Positions 2,758 to 44,638 are shown, numbered from the stretch's first letter. The stretch is DNA of 44,638 bases from a virus (IMGVR_UViG_3300020020_000075:1-44638), one strand, 5' to 3'. Program-made: numbers and translations. Notes: generated by a model not told the origin, from the letters alone.

Positions 2758-3447
2758 ATGGCAAGTTATAGCATCCCAGAAGAAATTACGGGTATTCCTC
2801 TATTTGTTCCCGATGCATATGATTATTTTAGTATCGATACTGCAGGTATGCCTAATGGCGATGATTGTTTAATTATCCACGGCAACACTAGTACTGACTA
2901 TAAAGCTTTTCAAAAAGCACAAGTATTAACACCTAACGTATTTCTCGGTAGAGCAGATTCTTGGGGTATGTCGTTTTGGTTTAAAGGTGCTGATGCAACC
3001 TCCGTTACAAATACTAACGCGGTGTCTAATCTATTAATGGGTGTTCAAACATCCACTGGGCCTAACGCATATAGTTCGATCAATGATTATTATTGGCAAA
3101 TAGGTGTAAGCGGAACTAATTTGATCCAAGTATTAATGAATTCTGGTGGAGGAAACGCATCAACTACACTACCAAGAGATAACGTTTGGCATTTGGTTGT
3201 CGTTAATGTAACCGGTGGTACTACGGCCGGCATGACGGTAATGGTAGATAAAATTGCAAGCACCTCATCACAAGCAAAAGCAGGAACTCCAGGTACTGCA
3301 AACATGTATTTTAGTATTGGTGCATACGGTAATCACGCTAACTCAAAAGGCTACAACAAAGAATGGCGTTTAGGTAAACTAGCGTTTCATGATCACATAT
3401 TAAATCAAACAGAACGTGCATTGCTCTACGATATGGTCATGTTGTAA
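2758..3447 (+). CDS. LamG / concanavalin-like tail protein, copy 1
   Basis: 229 aa. It begins MASYSIPEEITG and continues with alternating beta-strand segments typical of a LamG/concanavalin A jelly roll (WGMSFWFKG, WHLVVVNV, WRLGKLAFHD). The C-terminus ends soon after the domain. A strong ribosome site (AAAGGAG) precedes the start. It is clearly paralogous to the next gene over its whole length. Base composition is low in GC here (35% in the 60 bases from 2821, hand count). Likely binds surface glycans; receptor binding is inferred. Confidence 0.7.
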   Translation: MASYSIPEEITGIPLFVPDAYDYFSIDTAGMPNGDDCLIIHGNTSTDYKAFQKAQVLTPNVFLGRADSWGMSFWFKGADATSVTNTNAVSNLLMGVQTSTGPNAYSSINDYYWQIGVSGTNLIQVLMNSGGGNASTTLPRDNVWHLVVVNVTGGTTAGMTVMVDKIASTSSQAKAGTPGTANMYFSIGAYGNHANSKGYNKEWRLGKLAFHDHILNQTERALLYDMVML

Positions 3448-3456
3448 AGGAGATTT

Positions 3457-4497
3457 ATGGCAAGTTATAGCATCCCAGAAGAAGTTACAGGGCTTTATTT
3501 ATTTGTACCCGACGATTATGATTATTTCAGTATTGATGCGACCGGAATGCCCAACGGTGATCCTTGTTTAATTGTACATGGCAATGTCAGCACAAACTAT
3601 AGAGCTTTTCAAAAAGCGCAGACTTTGTCGCCGGACGTATTTCTTTCTACCGCAAGCACATGGGCTATGACATTTTGGTTTAAGTGTGCTGTAACTACAT
3701 CTCCTGGGGCTAGCGGAAGTGTTGGGTTGCAAGCGAATATAATGAGTGTTCAAACTGCTGCTGGTCCGACCAGTTATTCAAACAACACCAATTATGTTTG
3801 GAGTATTGGTCGAAAAGTAGCAGCAACAGATGGCAAACTTTCTTTTTTATCTAATGATCAGGGAGCTAATTCACAAACTTCAACGAATGTTTGTGACAAC
3901 GCATGGCATTTAATTACGATTAATGTAAACCCAACAAGTACAGGAACCGCAACTATTTATGTAGATGCCAGCGCAAGTGGCGGTTCAGCCGCCAAACGTG
4001 GCACACCGGCAACCGCGGGGATGTTTTTCAGTATTGGGTCGTATGGACAAAATGCCGCGGCTGTGAGTTATAATCAAGAATGGCGTGTTGGGAAAATTGC
4101 ATTTTATTCGGCGCCTTTAACTTTGGGGCAAAGAACTTCGTTGTATAATGCTATGGTGTCTGGTGGCGGAGCTGGTCCTGGTCCTACGGTTACGTGTACG
4201 ATCAACGTAAAGTCTGGTCAGGCCGACCCGGCCACAGGAGAACCTGTTCTATTTGAAGCGGTTTTCTCAGAAGTAGTAACTGGTTTCTCTGGAAGTGATG
4301 TAATTCTTTCAGGAACGGCTGGCGCAACAGTTGCGGCATTGTCTACATTAGACAATGTTACATATACCGTTGGTGTATCAGGAATGACTACTTCGGGAAC
4401 AGTTGTCGCTTCTATTCCGGCCGCTTGCGCAACCTCATTGAGCGGCGGTCCGAATGCAGCTTCGACATCCACAGACAATTCCATCGCCTGGTCGTAA
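3457..4497 (+). CDS. LamG-like tail protein, copy 2, with C-terminal Ig-like domain
   Basis: 346 aa. The first ~230 residues parallel the preceding protein (MASYSIPEEVTG start, WAMTFWFKC, WHLITINV, WRVGKIAFY). The last ~105 residues form an added domain beginning near TVTCTINVKSGQ and containing FSGSDVILSGTAGATV and VSGMTTSGTVVASIP, a pattern seen in bacterial Ig-like repeats of surface proteins. The two genes are 9 bases apart and arose by tandem duplication. The Ig-like addition may lengthen or anchor the adhesin. Confidence 0.72.
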   Translation: MASYSIPEEVTGLYLFVPDDYDYFSIDATGMPNGDPCLIVHGNVSTNYRAFQKAQTLSPDVFLSTASTWAMTFWFKCAVTTSPGASGSVGLQANIMSVQTAAGPTSYSNNTNYVWSIGRKVAATDGKLSFLSNDQGANSQTSTNVCDNAWHLITINVNPTSTGTATIYVDASASGGSAAKRGTPATAGMFFSIGSYGQNAAAVSYNQEWRVGKIAFYSAPLTLGQRTSLYNAMVSGGGAGPGPTVTCTINVKSGQADPATGEPVLFEAVFSEVVTGFSGSDVILSGTAGATVAALSTLDNVTYTVGVSGMTTSGTVVASIPAACATSLSGGPNAASTSTDNSIAWS

Positions 4498-6499: not shown

Positions 6500-6871
6500 A
6501 TGGAAAACAGCATTCTAACTAGTGTTAAGAAGATGCTTGGCATGGCCGAAGATTACACGGCGTTCGACGATGATATTCTCATCCACATCAACTCTGTGTT
6601 TTCGACTCTCATGCAACTAGGTATTGGCCCAATTGATGGGTTTACGATTGAAGATGACACTGTTGAGTGGGATGATTATGTTACGGCCGGAGTACCGGCT
6701 AACGAATTGAATTCGGTTAGAACGTATGTTTTCCTCAAGCTTCGACTTATTTTCGACCCACCCCAATCGTCGTATTTCATTGCTTCAATGGAACGACAGA
6801 TCGCAGAATTTGAATGGCGTCTCAACGTCGCTCGAGAGTATGCACTTTATCCAAGCGAGGAGGAAGTATGA
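6500..6871 (+). CDS. Head-tail connector (gp6-like)
   Basis: 123 aa, helical. SVKKMLGMAEDYTAFDDDILIHINSVF at the start, LGIGPIDGF in the middle, and YVFLKLRLIFDPPQSS near residue 80 match the phage head-tail connector family with a four-helix bundle, which forms the ring under the portal. It overlaps the next gene by an ATGA. In most relatives it lies after the capsid gene; here it precedes the large terminase, which is a rearranged order. Confidence 0.75.
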   Translation: MENSILTSVKKMLGMAEDYTAFDDDILIHINSVFSTLMQLGIGPIDGFTIEDDTVEWDDYVTAGVPANELNSVRTYVFLKLRLIFDPPQSSYFIASMERQIAEFEWRLNVAREYALYPSEEEV

Positions 6872-7257
6872 GTTTCGAAGACGTTGGTAGAGAATTCATC
6901 GAACACTACGGCGTCAAGGGTATGCGTTGGGGTAAGCGCAAAGCATCTAGCTCTGGCCCAGCGTCTGACGATGCTAAGCGCCACGCTGCCAATCGAAAGA
7001 AGAGCACAAGCGAACTGAGCGACAAGGAACTCAAGGATCTTGCTAATCGACTCAACACTGAGCAACAGGTTGCTCGACTTACCAGCAACGGTGAAAGTAC
7101 AGCGAAGAGAATTCTATCTGCTGGTGCAACCGCAAACACAGCGATCGCTCTTATCAGATCACCAGCTGGTCAAGCCACTCTTGCTGCCGGTGCAGCTATT
7201 GCTGTGAAACTGATTCGTACTTCCGGAGCGATCAAGACGATTGGTAAGTTCGGATAA
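6868..7257 (+). CDS. HYGVKGMRWG-motif phage protein
   Basis: 129 aa. The start overlaps the upstream stop (ATGA) and follows GAGGAGGAAG. Residues ~12-22 read EHYGVKGMRWGKR, a motif found at the N-terminus or C-terminus of many proteins in phages of Gram-positive bacteria. A charged helical region follows (SELSDKELKDLANRLNTEQQ), then a hydrophobic, Ala/Gly-rich C-terminal stretch (AGQATLAAGAAIAVKLI) that could insert in a membrane or pack as a helix. Probably a minor virion or assembly protein. A related motif opens the RNA-polymerase-like protein at 41533. Confidence 0.6.
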   Translation: MSFEDVGREFIEHYGVKGMRWGKRKASSSGPASDDAKRHAANRKKSTSELSDKELKDLANRLNTEQQVARLTSNGESTAKRILSAGATANTAIALIRSPAGQATLAAGAAIAVKLIRTSGAIKTIGKFG

Positions 7258-23433: not shown

Positions 23434-23457
23434 CGCACATTATACATCGTGTATAAT
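23434..23457 (+). promoter_or_regulatory. 24-bp promoter-like motif, copy 1
   Basis: CGCA, then 14 bases, then TATAAT (23452-23457). It is the copy with a perfect -10 hexamer. A perfect 7-base inverted repeat ATTATAC/GTATAAT (23439-23457) lies within it. It is the only motif in the gap between the holin and the 94-aa membrane protein gene. See the finding on nine fixed-spacing copies. Confidence 0.65.
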
Positions 23458-23480
23458 GGAAACCTACCGAAAGGATATAC

Positions 23481-23905: not shown

Positions 23906-23929
23906 CGCAGAAAATACACGCCCTCTAAT
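23906..23929 (+). promoter_or_regulatory. 24-bp promoter-like motif, copy 2
   Basis: TTCGCA start, 14-base spacer containing AAATACA, then TCTAAT (23924-23929). It is followed directly by GAGAAG, the 5-prime strand of the small RNA at 23930. A CCCCGGGGGG run lies ~20 bases upstream. Confidence 0.65.
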
Positions 23930-24001
23930 GAGAAGTGTGCGCAAGCACTAGCTGGAGATTGCATGGAAGAGCATCCCACTACCCGGCTTCTCATTTTTGC
24001 C
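23930..24001 (+). ncRNA. Candidate 63-nt structured RNA with U-tract, A
   Basis: GAGAAG at 23930-23935 pairs with CTTCTC at 23987-23992; the pairing extends outward to AATGAGAAG / CTTCTCATT. Inside is a GUGC-GCAA-GCAC hairpin with a GNRA loop and a second weaker hairpin (GAUUGC / GCAUC). TTTTTGCC follows at once, as in an intrinsic terminator. It starts where motif copy 2 ends and is followed by motif copy 3. No tRNA T-arm is visible. Length matches the RNA at 24287. Confidence 0.5.
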
Positions 24002-24004
24002 TTT

Positions 24005-24028
24005 CGCAGAAAAGACATGTCATCTAAT
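24005..24028 (+). promoter_or_regulatory. 24-bp promoter-like motif, copy 3
   Basis: CGCA, 14 bases with AAAGACATG, TCTAAT (24023-24028), then AGAAAGGAAGG leading to the 57-aa gene. It begins 3 bases after the TTTTTGCC of RNA A, so RNA A and this gene look like separate units. Confidence 0.65.
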
Positions 24029-24046
24029 AGAAAGGAAGGACCTATC

Positions 24047-24262: not shown

Positions 24263-24286
24263 CGCAAGAAATACATCTCCTCTAAT
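24263..24286 (+). promoter_or_regulatory. 24-bp promoter-like motif, copy 4
   Basis: CGCA, 14 bases with AAATACAT, TCTAAT (24281-24286). It begins within 8 bases of the preceding terminator stem and is followed directly by GAGAAGAAT of RNA B. Confidence 0.65.
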
Positions 24287-24362
24287 GAGAAGAATAGAAT
24301 CATTAGGATTCCCTGAAAGCCCTGATATGTACAGGAGGGCATTCTTCTCGTATAATTTTTGC
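24287..24362 (+). ncRNA. Candidate 63-nt structured RNA with U-tract, B
   Basis: GAGAAGAAT (24287-24295) pairs perfectly with ATTCTTCTC (24341-24349); with one G-U the stem reaches 11 bp into the TAAT of the motif. Inside are a GAATC/GATTC hairpin and a GCCCU/AGGGC arm, so the fold is a three-way junction. AATTTTTGCC follows. Its paired core has the same 63-nt length as RNA A but a different inner sequence, which suggests a conserved architecture. The next gene starts 19 bases later. Confidence 0.55.
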
Positions 24363-25544: not shown

Positions 25545-25568
25545 CGCAGTAAATACATCGACTGTAAT
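25545..25568 (+). promoter_or_regulatory. 24-bp promoter-like motif, copy 5
   Basis: CGCA, 14 bases with AAATACATCG, TGTAAT (25563-25568). It starts 6 bases after the stop of the DUF6353-like gene and drives the 54-aa gene at 25597. Confidence 0.6.
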
Positions 25569-25596
25569 GAAGCAGTCTACCATAAGGAGACAAACA

Positions 25597-34357: not shown

Positions 34358-34381
34358 CGCAGAAATTACACGCCCTCTAAT
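34358..34381 (+). promoter_or_regulatory. 24-bp promoter-like motif, copy 6
   Basis: TTCGCA, 14-base spacer with AAATTACA, TCTAAT (34376-34381), then GAGAAG of the large RNA. Almost identical to copy 2 across the whole motif. It begins 3 bases after the 36-aa gene. Confidence 0.7.
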
Positions 34382-34478
34382 GAGAAGAAAGCGCTCCCAG
34401 GCTGGGAGTTAAAGTGCTACGATACCGTCAGGTATTAGATAAGGCCCACAACCGCTTAACTTCTCATATAGTTTTTGC
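34382..34478 (+). ncRNA. 5-prime module of the large RNA, related to RNAs A and B
   Basis: ATGAGAAG (34380-34387) pairs with CTTCTCAT (34460-34467), and across an A-A internal loop AAGCG pairs with CGCTT. Two inner hairpins follow. AGTTTTTGCC comes right after, as in RNAs A and B. This could be an independent ~84-nt RNA with its own terminator, or the first domain of the longer molecule. Confidence 0.5.
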
Positions 34479-34855
34479 CGTCGACTGAGCGACGTTAAAT
34501 AGCCTTTAGGCTCAGTGCGCCCCCGTAAGGGGGGTAGACTGTGAAGGGAAACACAGAGCGCTCCCGTGGCCATGCTACATGGAGTATAGGTCAACAAAAA
34601 ACCGCTTAGTACAACAGACCCAGGTCTTCCCCTGGCGAGTTAGTTTAATAGGAGATTCACGTCTGGTGCGCGTGAGCTGAAACGGAAGCCCCACCTTGAA
34701 GCCGCTGAGGTTTTAAGGAAGACCCCTGGAACGGGGGAGATAATTACCGGTCTCTGGAAGCTATTAAACAGCTAAGGCTATCCACCCCCCTGAGTCTACC
34801 GTGAGATGCGGAAACCAGGTGATTAAAAGTCCCCGTGGTGGCGGGGCAACTTCTC
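34382..34855 (+). ncRNA. Large structured noncoding RNA candidate (~474 nt)
   Basis: This 531-bp gap (34356-34886) holds no plausible gene. Many strong hairpins lie in order: CTCCCAGGCTGGGAG (34394-34408), ATACC-GUCA-GGUAU (34422-34435), CTGAGC/GCTCAG, CCCCC-GUAA-GGGGG, CTGTG/CACAG, CCATG-CTA-CATGG, and CCCCG/CGGGG near 34831-34846. GAGAAG at 34382 can pair with CTTCTC at 34460 or with the one at 34850, so two closures are possible. Motif copy 6 abuts its 5-prime end. Size and complexity resemble large ornate phage RNAs such as GOLLD and ROOL, but class membership cannot be decided by eye. Confidence 0.6.
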
Positions 34856-36453: not shown

Positions 36454-36477
36454 CGCATGAATTACATGCCTCATAAT
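36454..36477 (+). promoter_or_regulatory. 24-bp promoter-like motif, copy 7
   Basis: TTCGCA, 14 bases with AATTACATG, CATAAT (36472-36477). An AATAGG/CCTATT hairpin begins inside the TAAT and ends just before the ribosome site of the 47-aa gene. Confidence 0.62.
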
Positions 36478-36501
36478 AGGAACCCCTATTAAGGAGAACA
36501 A

Positions 36502-36718: not shown

Positions 36719-36934
36719 ATGCAAACCATAGAAAAGTGGTATGAATGTGTGGAAATAATGATAGCCAAAGCTAAGGCAGAAGAGATTTGGTATTTCATTA
36801 TGATCGATTGGGAATCGGACGAAATCAAATCTGCGGAGGAAGTGTTAGAAACTCGTTTGGGTTATCCAATCCCGATCTTTCTTCATCATCCATTGGGACA
36901 TCCACGGACATTAGCGCATCTGTTCTTCGCATGA
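36719..36934 (+). CDS. Unknown small protein (71 aa)
   Basis: 71 aa, soluble with a hydrophobic end. IEKWYECVEIMIAKAKAEEIW, then PIFLHHPLGHPRTLAHLFF. AAGGAGACGTT precedes the start. Not recognised. Its stop codon lies within motif copy 8. Confidence 0.55.
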   Translation: MQTIEKWYECVEIMIAKAKAEEIWYFIMIDWESDEIKSAEEVLETRLGYPIPIFLHHPLGHPRTLAHLFFA

Positions 36935-36951
36935 AATACTTGGCTTCTAGT
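36928..36951 (+). promoter_or_regulatory. 24-bp promoter-like motif, copy 8
   Basis: TTCGCA, 14 bases with AAATACTTG, TCTAGT (36946-36951), one base off the usual TAAT end. It overlaps the stop codon of the upstream gene and precedes the 82-aa gene. Confidence 0.5.
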
Positions 36952-36969
36952 GAGGACAAAGGAGAACCC

Positions 36970-37260: not shown

Positions 37261-37284
37261 CGCAGGAATTACTACGCTTCTAAT
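37261..37284 (+). promoter_or_regulatory. 24-bp promoter-like motif, copy 9
   Basis: TTCGCA, 14 bases with AATTACTACG, TCTAAT (37279-37284). Precedes the 69-aa membrane protein gene by 27 bases. Confidence 0.62.
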
Positions 37285-37310
37285 AGAAATCTACCCAAAG
37301 GAGAACCATC

Positions 37311-39906: not shown

Positions 39907-39932
39907 GATTATCGGAACGCAGAATAGGTAAT

Positions 39933-40103
39933 AAGTACAAACTATACGAAAATAAGTAATAAGTACAAAGGTTCTACCTCAACCCTTGTTAGAAAAACGT
40001 ATATTTGTACTTATAATCTACACGCACTACTTATAGTATGTACTTTCAACTAAGTACAAAAGTCGGTTTTCTACAGAGCTTTTAGACTTAGGGGTTTGTA
40101 CTT
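39933..40103. repeat. Cluster of AAGTACAAA repeats; candidate origin or operator
   Basis: Within the 237-bp gap 39907-40143 the word AAGTACAAA occurs at 39933, 39961 and 40052, its reverse complement at 40004 and 40095, and a one-mismatch reverse copy at 40037. Several copies are preceded by TAAT or AAGTAAT. The gap is AT-rich (30% GC in the 60 bases from 39961). Further single copies are at 387, 36695 and 40634. Arrays like this serve as replication iterons or as repressor/operator sites. The replication fusion is 7 kb away. Confidence 0.6.
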
Positions 40104-40143
40104 ATTACTTATTTTGCCACTTTTTCAGATTGGAGAATAAATC

Positions 40144-40716: not shown

Positions 40717-41013
40717 ATGAACGAAGCAAGTTACAAGATCAAGCTCGTCAAGAAACTTCGTGAACGGTTTCCCGGTTGTCACATTCAAGACAACGATGCC
40801 GCTGATATACAGGGTGTGCCAGACATTACCATCTTTTGGAAGAACTCCTGGGCCATGCTTGAGATTAAAGAATCAAGTAAAGCACCTAAGCGCCCTAATC
40901 AAGAGTTCTATGTTGAGCACTTCAACACTATGTCTTTCGCTGCCTTCATCTTCCCAGAAAATGAAGCAGAGGTACTAAATGAACTTCAAAGATCATTCGG
41001 ATCTCACAGGTAA
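40717..41013 (+). CDS. VRR-NUC / Holliday-junction-resolvase-like nuclease
   Basis: 98 aa. PD-(D/E)XK core: GVPDITIF with D36, then AMLEIKES with E49 and K51, preceded by KLRERFPGCHIQDND. VRR-NUC enzymes cut branched DNA; here a role in resolving replication intermediates before packaging is inferred. It overlaps the Cas4-like gene by 35 bases. Confidence 0.8.
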   Translation: MNEASYKIKLVKKLRERFPGCHIQDNDAADIQGVPDITIFWKNSWAMLEIKESSKAPKRPNQEFYVEHFNTMSFAAFIFPENEAEVLNELQRSFGSHR

Positions 41014-41539
41014 ACACGCCTTTCTAAGTCCAAGTAGTTATCACTGGATCAACTACGACCCTGAGAAACTAGAAGCTCGATTCATCTCAGCCATGGCGGC
41101 TAAGCGTGGAACCGACCTACACGAATTTGCACACCAAGCAATTCGTCTAGCAATCAAGATGCCCAAGAATCGTAAGACACTACACATGTATGTCAACGAT
41201 GCCATTAACTATCAGATGAATGTAGAGCAACCTCTTTACTACTCTGAGAACTGTTTTGGGCATGCAGATACACTTTCATTTCGAAACATGTTCCTTAGGG
41301 TGCATGATTTGAAGACTGGCGTTCGTGCAACATCTGAACATCAACTCGAGGTATACGCAGCTTTGTTCTGTCTTGAATATGGGTACACCCCGTTTGAGAT
41401 TAGGATTGAACTTCGTATCTATCAAACTGATGAAGTCAGAGTGTATGAACCAACACCCGAATCCATCGCCCAGATCATGGACACGATCATCAATCACGAC
41501 AGGCAGATCGAGCAACTCAAAGAAGGGAGCGTGTGGTGA
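40979..41539 (+). CDS. Cas4/RecB-like exonuclease
   Basis: 186 aa. RGTDLHEFAHQAI (H48), GHADTLSF (D97), VHDLKTG (D110, K112) and HQLEVY (Q122, Y126) are the PD-(D/E)XK residues of the RecB/Cas4 type. No Cys cluster for an iron-sulphur centre is visible, unlike many Cas4. No CRISPR array exists here, so a phage recombination or end-processing role is likely. Overlaps the neighbouring genes at both ends. Confidence 0.8.
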   Translation: MNFKDHSDLTGKHAFLSPSSYHWINYDPEKLEARFISAMAAKRGTDLHEFAHQAIRLAIKMPKNRKTLHMYVNDAINYQMNVEQPLYYSENCFGHADTLSFRNMFLRVHDLKTGVRATSEHQLEVYAALFCLEYGYTPFEIRIELRIYQTDEVRVYEPTPESIAQIMDTIINHDRQIEQLKEGSVW

Positions 41540-44280
41540 TTCTTGATGAAGATGACTATTTGGAACACTATGGCACCCCACGACATTCTGGAAGATATCC
41601 TTGGGGCTCAGGTGGAGCTGATGATGAACAAACATCGACAAGGAACCAAGACTACGCCGGCTTTGTGAAAGACATGAAGAGACAAGGTCTTACTGAAGCT
41701 CAAATTGCTGAGGGTGAGGGTATCTCCACCACACAACTTCGAGCTCGAGTGTCTATCGCTTCTAACATGAAGAAGGCCGCACTCACATCTCAAATAGTAA
41801 GACTTCGTGAAGCGGGTAATGACAAATCAGCTATTGGTCGTAGACTTGGCGTTCCAGAATCAACCGTTCGTTCCTATCTCAAAGATTACGAGAATCAAAA
41901 GGAAGATATTCTTCAAGCCACCGCAAACAAGCTTCGTAAAGAAGTCGCTGAGAAATATCTTGTCGACATTGGTAGTGGCGCCGAGAACTTTCTTGGAATC
42001 AGTGCAACTCGTCTGAATACTGCAGCCACCATTCTTAAGGAAGAAGGATATGAGATTTGGGATGTAAACAGTCCACAGATCACAAATCCTGGTGCTTACA
42101 CTCGTTACAAAGTGCTAGCCCCTCCTGGAACCACAAGAACTCAGGCATACAAGGACCGCGATCAGATTCGTCAAATGGGTGGCCCGTCTGAAGATGGTGG
42201 AGAAACCTACAAGAAGATCCAAGCACCTATGGGAATCTCTGCGGATAGAATAGCTATCCGATATGGTCCTGAAGGTGGCGGTAAAGCAGATGGCGTTATC
42301 TATGTCCGTCCTGGTGTAGATGATGTGTCTTTGGGTAAAGCTCAATATGCACAGGTTCGTATCTTGGTTAACGATAGTCATTATCTCAAGGGTATGGCTG
42401 TTTACAAGGATAACTTACCAGAAGGCGTTGATCTTGTCTTTAACACACCAAAGAAAGACACCGGAAACAAACTTGATGCAATGAAGACGCTTGAGAGTGA
42501 TGATCCTCTCAATCCGTTTGGTGCAACCATTCGGGATCAGGTTACTGTTAAGGTAGATGGACGAGATAAACTAACTTCTGTAATGAACTTGGTTAATCAA
42601 GAAGGTTCATGGAGCGATTGGTCTGATTCAATCTCTACTCAGATGTTGTCGAAGCAAAGTCCTAAATTGATCAAATCTCAATTGGACATGACTTTTGAAC
42701 AACGTCAAAAAGAGTTCAAACAGATTTCTGAATTGACCAACCCAACTGTCAAACAGAAGCTTCTTGAAACTTTTGCTGATGAAACAGATTCTGCTGCAGT
42801 ACACTTGAAGGCTGCTGGATTCAAAAGACAAGGGTGGCATGCCATTCTTCCAGTCGAATCGCTGAGTCCTTCTGAGGTGTATGCCCCAGGATTTCGTCCA
42901 GGTGAAAGTGTCTATCTAGTTCGGTTTCCTCATGGTGGCACCTTTGAGATTCCAGAATTGACAGTCAATAACAACAACCGAGAAGCTAAGCGAGCGCTTG
43001 GTACTAATCCAAGAGATGCTATTGGTATTCATCACACTGTTGCTGAAAGGCTTTCTGGAGCAGACTTCGATGGTGACACCGTACTCGTCATTCCGAAAGG
43101 TAGTGCTAAACTATCTACAAAGCCAGCATTAGAAGGGCTAAAAGACTTTAATGCTAAGGCGGTCTATGCTCCTTATGATGGAATGAAGACCATTGATGGT
43201 GGAACATGGAATGCGGCTAAGGGCAAACCAGACTATGGTGATAAACCACCGTCTAGTCAACAAAAGCAAACTCAAATGGGTGTTGTGTCAAACTTGATTA
43301 CTGACATGACTCTTCGTCAAGCGCCACTTAGTGATATTGTAAAAGCAGTTAGGCATTCACAAACTGTAATTGATGCTGAGAAACACAGCCTCAATTGGAA
43401 ACAATCTGCGCTTGACAATAACATTTCAGACCTTGCGTTGAAGTATCAAGGCCGTAAAGCTGGCGGTGCCCACACACTAATCTCTAAAGCGAGTGCCAAG
43501 ACAAAGCCATTCCCTGAAAGGAAAGCTCGTCCTGCTGCTTTAGGTGGACCGATTGATAAGGTTACTGGTAAACGAGAGTTCGTTCCTACAGGGAGAATGC
43601 GAAAGAATAGGGATGGTGAATACGAATTAGCTACTCAAACATCTAAGAAGCTTGCCGAGACTGATGATGCATTCACCCTTTCTTCTGGTACACCACAGGA
43701 AAGATTGTATGCTGAACATTCTAACAAGCTAAAGAACCTAGCTAATCAAGCAAGGTTAGAGTTTGTAGCTACACCAAACCTTAAGTATTCACCCTCTGCT
43801 AAGAAGATCTATGCAGAAGAAGTGAAAACTCTTCAGGGAAAACTTGAAACAATCGAAAGAAACCGCCCCCTCGAAAGACAAGCCCAGATCATAGCAAACG
43901 CCCAGTTTCGTGCGAAACTCCAGTCTAATCCAAACATGGATGATGATACTAGGAAGAAGATCAAGTCCCAAGCTATTAATGAAGCCCGTATTAGAACCGG
44001 TGCCGAAAGACTCCGTATTGAAATAGAACCCAATGAATGGGATGCTATTCAAGCAGGGGCCATTAGTCATAGCATGCTTGATGACATTCTTGATAAAGCG
44101 AACCTGGACACCGTTAGGAAGCTGGCCACGCCTAAACCTACTAAGTTGATGACAACAACTAAGACTAACAGAGCTATGCAAATGCTTGCTAGTGGTGCAT
44201 CAAGAGCTGAAGTTGCTGATGCTTTGGGTGTTTCTCTTAGTACGTTGGATGCTGCTATTAGTGGTACTGATGATGAGTAA
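41533..44280 (+). CDS. Single-chain RNA-polymerase-like protein
   Basis: 915 aa, GTG start (41533 or, better spaced, 41536). Residues ~10-26 hold HYGTPRHSGRYPWGSG. Two HTH-like segments follow (LTEAQIAEGEGISTTQLRA; DKSAIGRRLGVPESTVRS). HYLKGMAVY (283-291) plus EGVDLVFNTPK (297-307) recall the RNAP beta stretch HGNKGV ... VDIVLNP. VYLVRFPH (R464) and GADFDGDTVLVIP (D511, D513, D515) recall beta-prime NRAP and NADFDGD. The order fits crAss-like and YonO single-chain polymerases. A third HTH-like end lies at ~885-908. Relatives are often just called structural or HTH protein, so the activity is inferred. Confidence 0.65.
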   Translation: MVILDEDDYLEHYGTPRHSGRYPWGSGGADDEQTSTRNQDYAGFVKDMKRQGLTEAQIAEGEGISTTQLRARVSIASNMKKAALTSQIVRLREAGNDKSAIGRRLGVPESTVRSYLKDYENQKEDILQATANKLRKEVAEKYLVDIGSGAENFLGISATRLNTAATILKEEGYEIWDVNSPQITNPGAYTRYKVLAPPGTTRTQAYKDRDQIRQMGGPSEDGGETYKKIQAPMGISADRIAIRYGPEGGGKADGVIYVRPGVDDVSLGKAQYAQVRILVNDSHYLKGMAVYKDNLPEGVDLVFNTPKKDTGNKLDAMKTLESDDPLNPFGATIRDQVTVKVDGRDKLTSVMNLVNQEGSWSDWSDSISTQMLSKQSPKLIKSQLDMTFEQRQKEFKQISELTNPTVKQKLLETFADETDSAAVHLKAAGFKRQGWHAILPVESLSPSEVYAPGFRPGESVYLVRFPHGGTFEIPELTVNNNNREAKRALGTNPRDAIGIHHTVAERLSGADFDGDTVLVIPKGSAKLSTKPALEGLKDFNAKAVYAPYDGMKTIDGGTWNAAKGKPDYGDKPPSSQQKQTQMGVVSNLITDMTLRQAPLSDIVKAVRHSQTVIDAEKHSLNWKQSALDNNISDLALKYQGRKAGGAHTLISKASAKTKPFPERKARPAALGGPIDKVTGKREFVPTGRMRKNRDGEYELATQTSKKLAETDDAFTLSSGTPQERLYAEHSNKLKNLANQARLEFVATPNLKYSPSAKKIYAEEVKTLQGKLETIERNRPLERQAQIIANAQFRAKLQSNPNMDDDTRKKIKSQAINEARIRTGAERLRIEIEPNEWDAIQAGAISHSMLDDILDKANLDTVRKLATPKPTKLMTTTKTNRAMQMLASGASRAEVADALGVSLSTLDAAISGTDDE

Positions 44281-44327
44281 TCAACAACACAACAACATCA
44301 TAGTTGTAAGTAATGAAAGGATGAATG

Positions 44328-44573
44328 ATGGTTGAAGCAATGTTAACAACGTATGACAATCCTCATGATCCTTTCACTGATTTCGATTCTTGGTACCAGT
44401 GGGATGAAAGAGCCGGCTACCACACACCATCGTTCCTTGCTCGGATTGCTGTAGTTTCAGATGAAATCTCCGAGCCCGACCAAGTACTTGCAATCAATCA
44501 AGCTATCGATGAGATTGTGAAAGAGAACACACTTGGAATGTATCGCAAAGTAACACGAGAGATTCCAGGTTAG
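44328..44573 (+). CDS. Conserved small phage protein (81 aa)
   Basis: 81 aa from the ATG at 44328 (GAAAGGA site 6 bases away; ATG 44325 is too close). AMLTTYDNPHDPFTDFDSWY, AGYHTPSFLARIAVVSDE, and an acidic helix. In my memory of phages from Gram-positive bacteria, relatives lie next to genes like the 915-aa one. Function unknown. It is the last gene before the packaging end. Confidence 0.68.
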   Translation: MVEAMLTTYDNPHDPFTDFDSWYQWDERAGYHTPSFLARIAVVSDEISEPDQVLAINQAIDEIVKENTLGMYRKVTREIPG

Positions 44574-44576
44574 TTA

Positions 44577-44638
44577 GTAGAGAGATTGAGTTTGCATAGG
44601 GGGAGGGGGGTCTCGCAGAATCTCCCCCCCTTATGCAT
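44577..44638. repeat. 62-bp terminal direct repeat, right copy
   Basis: Exact copy of bases 1-62. It begins 3 bases after the stop codon of the last gene (44328-44573), so in the circular map the small conserved gene is followed by the end palindrome and then the putative cos string. Confidence 0.95.

Follow-up and report, generated by a model that had tools for sequence, protein, structure and literature searches.

A putative virion-carried RNA polymerase with an N-terminal tag and a promoter-like motif in a phage genome from IMG/VR

The virus sequence IMGVR_UViG_3300020020_000075 (44,638 nucleotides, analysed over its whole length and called the window below) contains near its right end an open reading frame (ORF) at 41533-44280 on the plus strand, whose 915-amino-acid (aa) product had been proposed in a first-pass annotation as a single-chain RNA polymerase (RNAP). 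The locus raises the question of whether this protein has the fold of a polymerase and, if so, how such an enzyme would enter the infection cycle and which signals it would read. The window is an entire IMG/VR virus record with the RNAP and one small gene at its right end, and a 62-bp direct terminal repeat at its ends (1-62 and 44577-44638), which includes GGGGGAGGGGGG...CCCCCCC, makes it probable that the genome is complete and was assembled as a circle. The ORF is genuine and starts with GTG. The reading favoured here, with moderate confidence, is that of a virion-carried, single-chain, two-barrel, DNA-dependent RNAP that performs early transcription from its own promoters.

An AlphaFold2 (AF2) model of the protein, based on an alignment of 138 sequences, has a predicted local distance difference test (pLDDT) score of 88.6 and a predicted template modelling score of 0.81, with residues 1-37 disordered. 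Foldseek comparison of the full model with the PDB returned 15 matches at E<=0.001, every one a two-barrel polymerase, including QDE-1 (E = 1e-8), gp62 of the Thermus phage P74-26 (7e-7) and plant RDR2 (7e-6). The isolated core (residues 232-640), which has a pLDDT of 93.5, matched QDE-1 (4.7e-10), gp64 of the Thermus phage P23-45 (1.4e-8), gp96, the virion RNAP of P23-45 (1.5e-4), and cellular beta-prime chains (approximately 2e-3); its template modelling (TM) scores were 0.45-0.57 across QDE-1 entries and 0.48-0.51 to P23-45 gp64 and P74 gp62. The two-barrel fold, whose absence had been named beforehand as grounds for abandoning the polymerase assignment, is present in the AF2 model and in the Foldseek matches; on the strength of this prediction, it is nearly certain that the 915-aa protein adopts it. 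Sequence-only searches of the PDB with the protein and with 8-sequence and 138-sequence profiles yielded just helix-turn-helix (HTH) and designed helical proteins, so that recognition of the polymerase kinship depends on structure.

The predicted domains are arranged as follows, all on the plus strand. Two N-terminal HTH segments (approximately residues 39-122, 41647..41898), matched by Pfam HTH_23 in two stretches (E=6.5e-12) and helical in the model, precede a beta-like barrel B (approximately residues 240-356, 42250..42600; its limits are a reading of the strands in the model), which contains K286 within HYLKGMA. A beta-prime-like barrel A (approximately residues 434-521, 42832..43095) follows, with R464 and the DFDGD loop, which is in register with GADYDGD of P23-45 gp64 and provides the catalytic triad D511, D513 and D515 (43063..43077). 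Two long helices past barrel A (residues 576-618, 43258..43386), defined by the model and by conservation, include the invariant N587, L588, I589, D591 and M592 and are a candidate bridge-helix region by their order in the chain. A C-terminal HTH (residues 877-905, 44161..44247; Pfam HTH_7, E=1.7e-5) completes the three HTH-like segments perceived in the first-pass annotation, and the motifs that it had named were all located (HYLKGMAVY at 283-291, VRFPH at 463-467 and GADFDGDTVLVIP at 509-521). K286 and R464 are 178 residues apart; the distance of 47 residues from R464 to D511 also holds, but it is only roughly near the value of 35 in Escherichia coli to which it had been likened.

K286, G287, R464, P466, H467, D511, D513 and D515 are each conserved in 138 of 138 aligned relatives, whose identity extends down to 42% and some of which were retrieved by patterns including DFDGD; K307 (134/138) is a possible second conserved lysine of barrel B. 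The invariance of DFDGD is not an artefact of retrieval: 87 full-length ORFs chosen solely by an N-terminal tag, described below, all have DxDGD and RxPH, and 86 have KG[M/V]. These residues and the predicted fold suggest that the protein may catalyse RNA synthesis. A catalytically dead structural protein that retains the fold would suit the label 'structural protein' given to the homolog in Lactococcus phage 1706 by its depositors, but it is scarcely credible, because the Asp triad, K286 and R464 vary little or not at all among the sequences examined, which is unexpected for an inert relic.

The window protein belongs to a family already present in databases, phrog_4291, which it matches end to end (residues 5-911, E=0, 1169 bits). 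The earlier remark that its relatives are not established as polymerases stands insofar as no experimental proof was found; the family is, however, already named 'RNA-dependent RNA polymerase' in PHROGs and in some RefSeq records, including that of orf75, the homolog in phage 1706. This name and the top PDB matches, QDE-1 and plant RDR2, would fit an RNA-templated enzyme. These two proteins have a role in eukaryotic RNA silencing and are the best structural matches, yet they show no significant sequence match, and we know of no HTH or tag in either. Moreover, QDE-1 has also been solved with DNA templates according to PDB titles, the P74 phage RNAP scores nearly as high, the enzyme bears HTH domains and is encoded by double-stranded DNA phages with an upstream DNA motif, and YonO of SPbeta, likewise related to RNA-dependent RNA polymerases, is strictly DNA-dependent (PMC5467207). 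An RNA template is thus very improbable, and DNA is the expected one.

Among phage enzymes, P23-45 gp64 and P74-26 gp62 (PDB 8F72, 8F5M) share the single-chain two-barrel fold with R-x-P ... GADxDGD in register. They differ in having approximately 600 aa, being non-virion proteins and using other promoters, and their sequence similarity is marginal: hhalign placed R464xP466 and GADFDGD in register with gp64 at an E value of 0.0045 and a probability of 8%. No such tag or HTH domains are known to us in either protein. YonO, a single-chain phage RNAP that transcribes late genes (PMC5467207), is of the same superfamily, but hhalign detected no similarity to it (probability 1.5%, wrong region, DxDxD unaligned), and by sequence the window RNAP is outside the YonO family. 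A comparison with a candidate protein of crAss phage phi14:2, a weak one because the ORF was picked by length, gave nothing with hhalign.

As the first-pass annotation supposed, relatives are common. Searches with tblastn located RNAP homologs in 250 of 50,697 phage records (hosts: Arthrobacter 95, Gordonia 55, Streptomyces 54, Lactococcus 13, and others), where the usual annotation is 'helix-turn-helix DNA-binding domain protein'. Among them are gp94 of Arthrobacter phage Mudcat and gp54 of Streptomyces phage RosaAsantewaa. The gene also occurs in at least 510 IMG/VR stretches and at least 152 stretches of bacterial genomes, many of them from Lachnospiraceae, Oscillospiraceae and other Bacillota; no homologs were found on the plasmids of PLSDB. 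Some copies are interrupted by a single stop codon (TAG or TAA) or are shortened (G029:340-2970, G052:56675-59521 and L178) and are either broken or recoded. Five contigs (G010, G020, G036, G041 and G046) encode, in the same genomes, stand-alone proteins resembling the N-terminal HTH region of the RNAP (approximately residues 36-131), which could compete with it in binding the same sites on DNA.

Catalytic residues aside, the RNAP is most conserved in the tag HYGxxRxSGRYPWGSG at its predicted-disordered N-terminus; in the window, the tag is the near-invariant LEHYGTPRHSGRYPWGSGG (residues 10-28, 41560..41616, plus strand). H12 is conserved in 136 of the 138 relatives, G14 and S19 in all and W24 in 131. 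Strong conservation combined with predicted disorder is what a recruitment peptide would show. A comparable tag, HYGVKGMRWG (6904-6933), is N-terminal in a head-module protein adjoining the terminase gene (6814..7257, plus strand), relatives of which occur in 232 phage records, with taxa almost matching those of the RNAP, and at 667 places altogether. RNAP loci contain 130 additional ORFs with HxG..WG tags, compared with 4 in shuffled ORFs. Of 130 non-redundant proteins with a tag, 121 matched DUF7211 (PF23847), whose tag has the form HxG..GM.WG and for which we know of no function. The mean column identity of these 130 is 5% over the alignment, and invariant columns are confined to the tag; at least four contain a GNAT acetyltransferase domain. 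Ten have a papain-fold glutamine deamidase domain (PF15644) and are candidate injected effectors against bacteria.

The form of the tag found on the RNAP is not exclusive to it. All 112 ORFs with GRYPWGxG also have the HxG half of the tag; 95 of them contain GADFDGD, 12 others end at a contig edge, and four are complete proteins unrelated to the RNAP that adjoin terminase genes. SGRYPWGSG is also present on GNAT and other proteins near terminase or portal genes (contigs L197 and L226). In L197, the ORFs at 157-702 and 2773-3801 are GNAT acetyltransferases adjoining the terminase gene with this tag at their N-termini, and these are possible virion-delivered, host-modifying enzymes. Conversely, the RNAP is encoded by 13 of 16 long contigs chosen solely via the DNA pattern for HYGxxGMKWG, three of the 16 having also appeared in the GRYPWG scan. 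Two proteins contain two DUF7211-type tags approximately 150-180 residues apart (L170 2820-3827 and L402 2501-3889; Mudcat gp7 and 1706 orf7), an arrangement that favours a repeated docking motif over a cleaved signal peptide. Literature searches for the tag sequence and for DUF7211 returned nothing relevant.

Sharing of a tag with head-region proteins points to the phage particle, and the original GenBank record of phage 1706 (EU081845) is consistent with this: its depositors labelled the tagged RNAP homolog orf75 'structural protein', as they did orf7 (two tags), orf62 and orf71, the last two of which are distant from the structural genes. Since several homology-based calls in the same record carry 'putative', the labels without it probably mean that the proteins were detected directly. 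The tag pattern and this one annotation make it likely that the RNAP is packaged in the virion. The enzyme could instead be of the non-virion type exemplified by YonO and by P23-45 gp64, a biochemically proven RNAP (PMC5467207, PMC10770324): it would then be made by the host RNAP after infection and serve middle or late genes, the tag would function in some other assembly, and the 1706 label would reflect contamination. Location of the RNAP gene in the replication region, and directly before structural genes in many relatives, agrees with this alternative, as would the promoter-like motif ahead of the RNAP gene group (see below) if the enzyme amplified itself. It is nevertheless unlikely, given the tag common to the RNAP and head-region proteins, the 'structural protein' label of orf75, and the concentration of strong motif sites at early rather than structural genes. 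A virion-carried RNAP has a precedent in P23-45 gp96 (PDB 8H2M), which shares the two-barrel fold and is fused to the tape measure protein (PMC10770324), whereas the window RNAP is a separate gene product with a short tag; the parallel proposed is early transcription by an enzyme that the virion brings in. Phage N4 also follows the strategy of a virion RNAP. By analogy, the window RNAP would work most like these virion enzymes, with a short tag replacing the fusion.

A gapless alignment of early-region repeats from the window and from phages Mudcat, RosaAsantewaa and 1706 defined a motif of approximately 28 bp, CGCA-N5-TACA-N4-CTaTAATGA. Under leave-one-genome-out scoring, the window has nine matches on the plus strand and one on the minus strand, with 0.9 expected per strand from shuffles; the exact IUPAC motif with up to three mismatches has six matches, with 0.02 expected. 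The plus-strand sites are at 23434..23459, 23906..23931, 24005..24030 (weak), 24263..24288 (immediately 3' of a terminator-like hairpin), 25545..25570, 34358..34383 (upstream of a Pistol ribozyme), 36454..36479, 36928..36953 and 37261..37286 (weak). With the same leave-one-out scoring, Mudcat had seven plus-strand and no minus-strand matches and RosaAsantewaa eight and one. Phage 1706 had just three (two in its early region), since the model excluded its own variant CTATAGTA, which has eight sites. The control phages SPbeta, P23-45 and phi14:2 had one, zero and zero matches. Almost every site in the four genomes that defined the motif is on the plus strand and in the early region or before the RNAP gene group; strong sites are at early genes, with none in the structural region, and several have a terminator-like hairpin immediately before and a ribosome-binding site after.

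The motif is also linked to the RNAP gene across genomes. Among independent loci, 65 of 69 in prophages have it upstream of the RNAP, ahead of the nuclease genes and at a median distance of 933 bp, compared with none within the RNAP gene and none on the reverse strand. Complete scans of IMG/VR with two exact motif patterns retrieved 104 and 59 stretches. Among these are 47 long contigs, selected on the motif and nothing else; 44 of them encode the RNAP, and two of the set (L250 and L254) had already been met through the tag. The simplest reading, a likely one from these sequence associations, is that the motif is recognised by this RNAP.

Several points weigh against the overall reading. The whole-chain TM score of the model is low (0.33), and approximately 0.5 is reached by the core only. 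The RNAP tag does not match the Pfam DUF7211 model at E<=1, and its resemblance to the DUF7211 tag is one of pattern and context. The 'structural protein' label in EU081845 comes without a stated method. Among viral loci, the motif occurs within 2.5 kb upstream in only 24 of 52, against 1/52 within the RNAP gene and 3/52 on the reverse strand, and in the window itself no site immediately precedes the RNAP gene group. The motif half CTATAATG resembles a bacterial -10 element, and, as phages with the RNAP have many genes in common, some other protein specific to the clade could read the motif.

The last two points would suit a motif read by the host RNAP or by another phage regulator, with the RNAP homolog active via other signals and its linkage to the motif not unique. 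This possibility deserves attention, but it is doubtful for several reasons: the motif lacks a TTGACA-like element, a sigma-70 promoter scan of the early region showed no enrichment (24 sites, 26.8 expected), the spacing is fixed across phages of Actinomycetota and Bacillota, the downstream block in Bacillota phages is CTTTTATG in place of TATAAT, and the linkage of 44 in 47 comes from a scan across IMG/VR.

Upstream of the RNAP gene are a VRR-Nuc nuclease gene (40717-41013) and, directly adjacent, a RecB-like exonuclease gene (40979-41539), both on the plus strand; the same order occurs in Streptomyces, Arthrobacter and Faecalibacterium phages, while several genes separate the exonuclease from the RNAP in 1706. 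Directly downstream, at 44325..44573 (plus strand), is a gene for an 82-aa acidic protein, a member of phrog_4303, to which PHROGs assigns no function. A homolog of this partner (median isoelectric point 4.4) lies directly 3' of the RNAP in all 131 testable loci (open frames beginning within approximately 150 nucleotides of the RNAP stop), and it was found in 250 phage records, a number equal to that for the RNAP, from nearly the same taxa. The strict pairing suggests that the partner is an accessory subunit, an inhibitor or a chaperone.

In the mechanism proposed for a virion-carried RNAP, the disordered tag would sort the enzyme into the particle alongside other tagged cargo, and the RNAP would be delivered with the phage DNA. 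It would then initiate at the 28-bp motif without a sigma factor, probably recognising it via its own HTH domains, and thereby transcribe the early region. In most prophage relatives, the one motif ahead of the nuclease-exonuclease-RNAP-partner group would allow new polymerase to accumulate and be packaged; in the window, which lacks a motif directly before this group, transcription of the group may start at more distant upstream sites or come about otherwise. The acidic partner would act as accessory subunit, inhibitor or packaging chaperone. The broader proposal is that siphophages infecting Actinomycetota and Bacillota, many gut prophages among them, form a large unrecognised group with autonomous early transcription, a single-chain two-barrel RNAP with a short, portable capsid-sorting tag that acts likewise on cargo resembling acetyltransferases and deamidases, an obligate acidic partner and a conserved promoter of approximately 28 bp; for this wider claim, the balance is about even.

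Neither tag nor partner gene nor promoter motif featured in the first reading of the sequence, and this system is undescribed in the literature searched. Hundreds of sequenced phages may import their own transcription machine, and a virion RNAP with its own promoters would make their early expression independent of the host RNAP. If this is true, phages that are easy to grow in the laboratory would offer transcription research a small relative of cellular RNAP whose promoters are known, and the widespread DUF7211 tag would gain a function as a cargo-sorting signal.

Two further elements were noted in the window. A Pistol self-cleaving ribozyme (34479-34539, plus strand; Rfam RF02679, 57 bits) begins approximately 100 nucleotides 3' of the motif site at 34358, in a 500-nucleotide stretch without clear genes, part of which matches Gordonia phage GTE7 and Curtobacterium phage Pippin15. 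Folding stability 3' of the ribozyme is no higher than in shuffles (z 0.23). Upstream of an HNH gene, the 175 bp at 39931-40105 contain five copies of WTAAGTACAAA in both orientations, with nine in the whole window compared with 1.35 expected. These TAAGTACAAA repeats were set aside as promoters, not being the motif common to the other phages; they are iteron- or operator-like.

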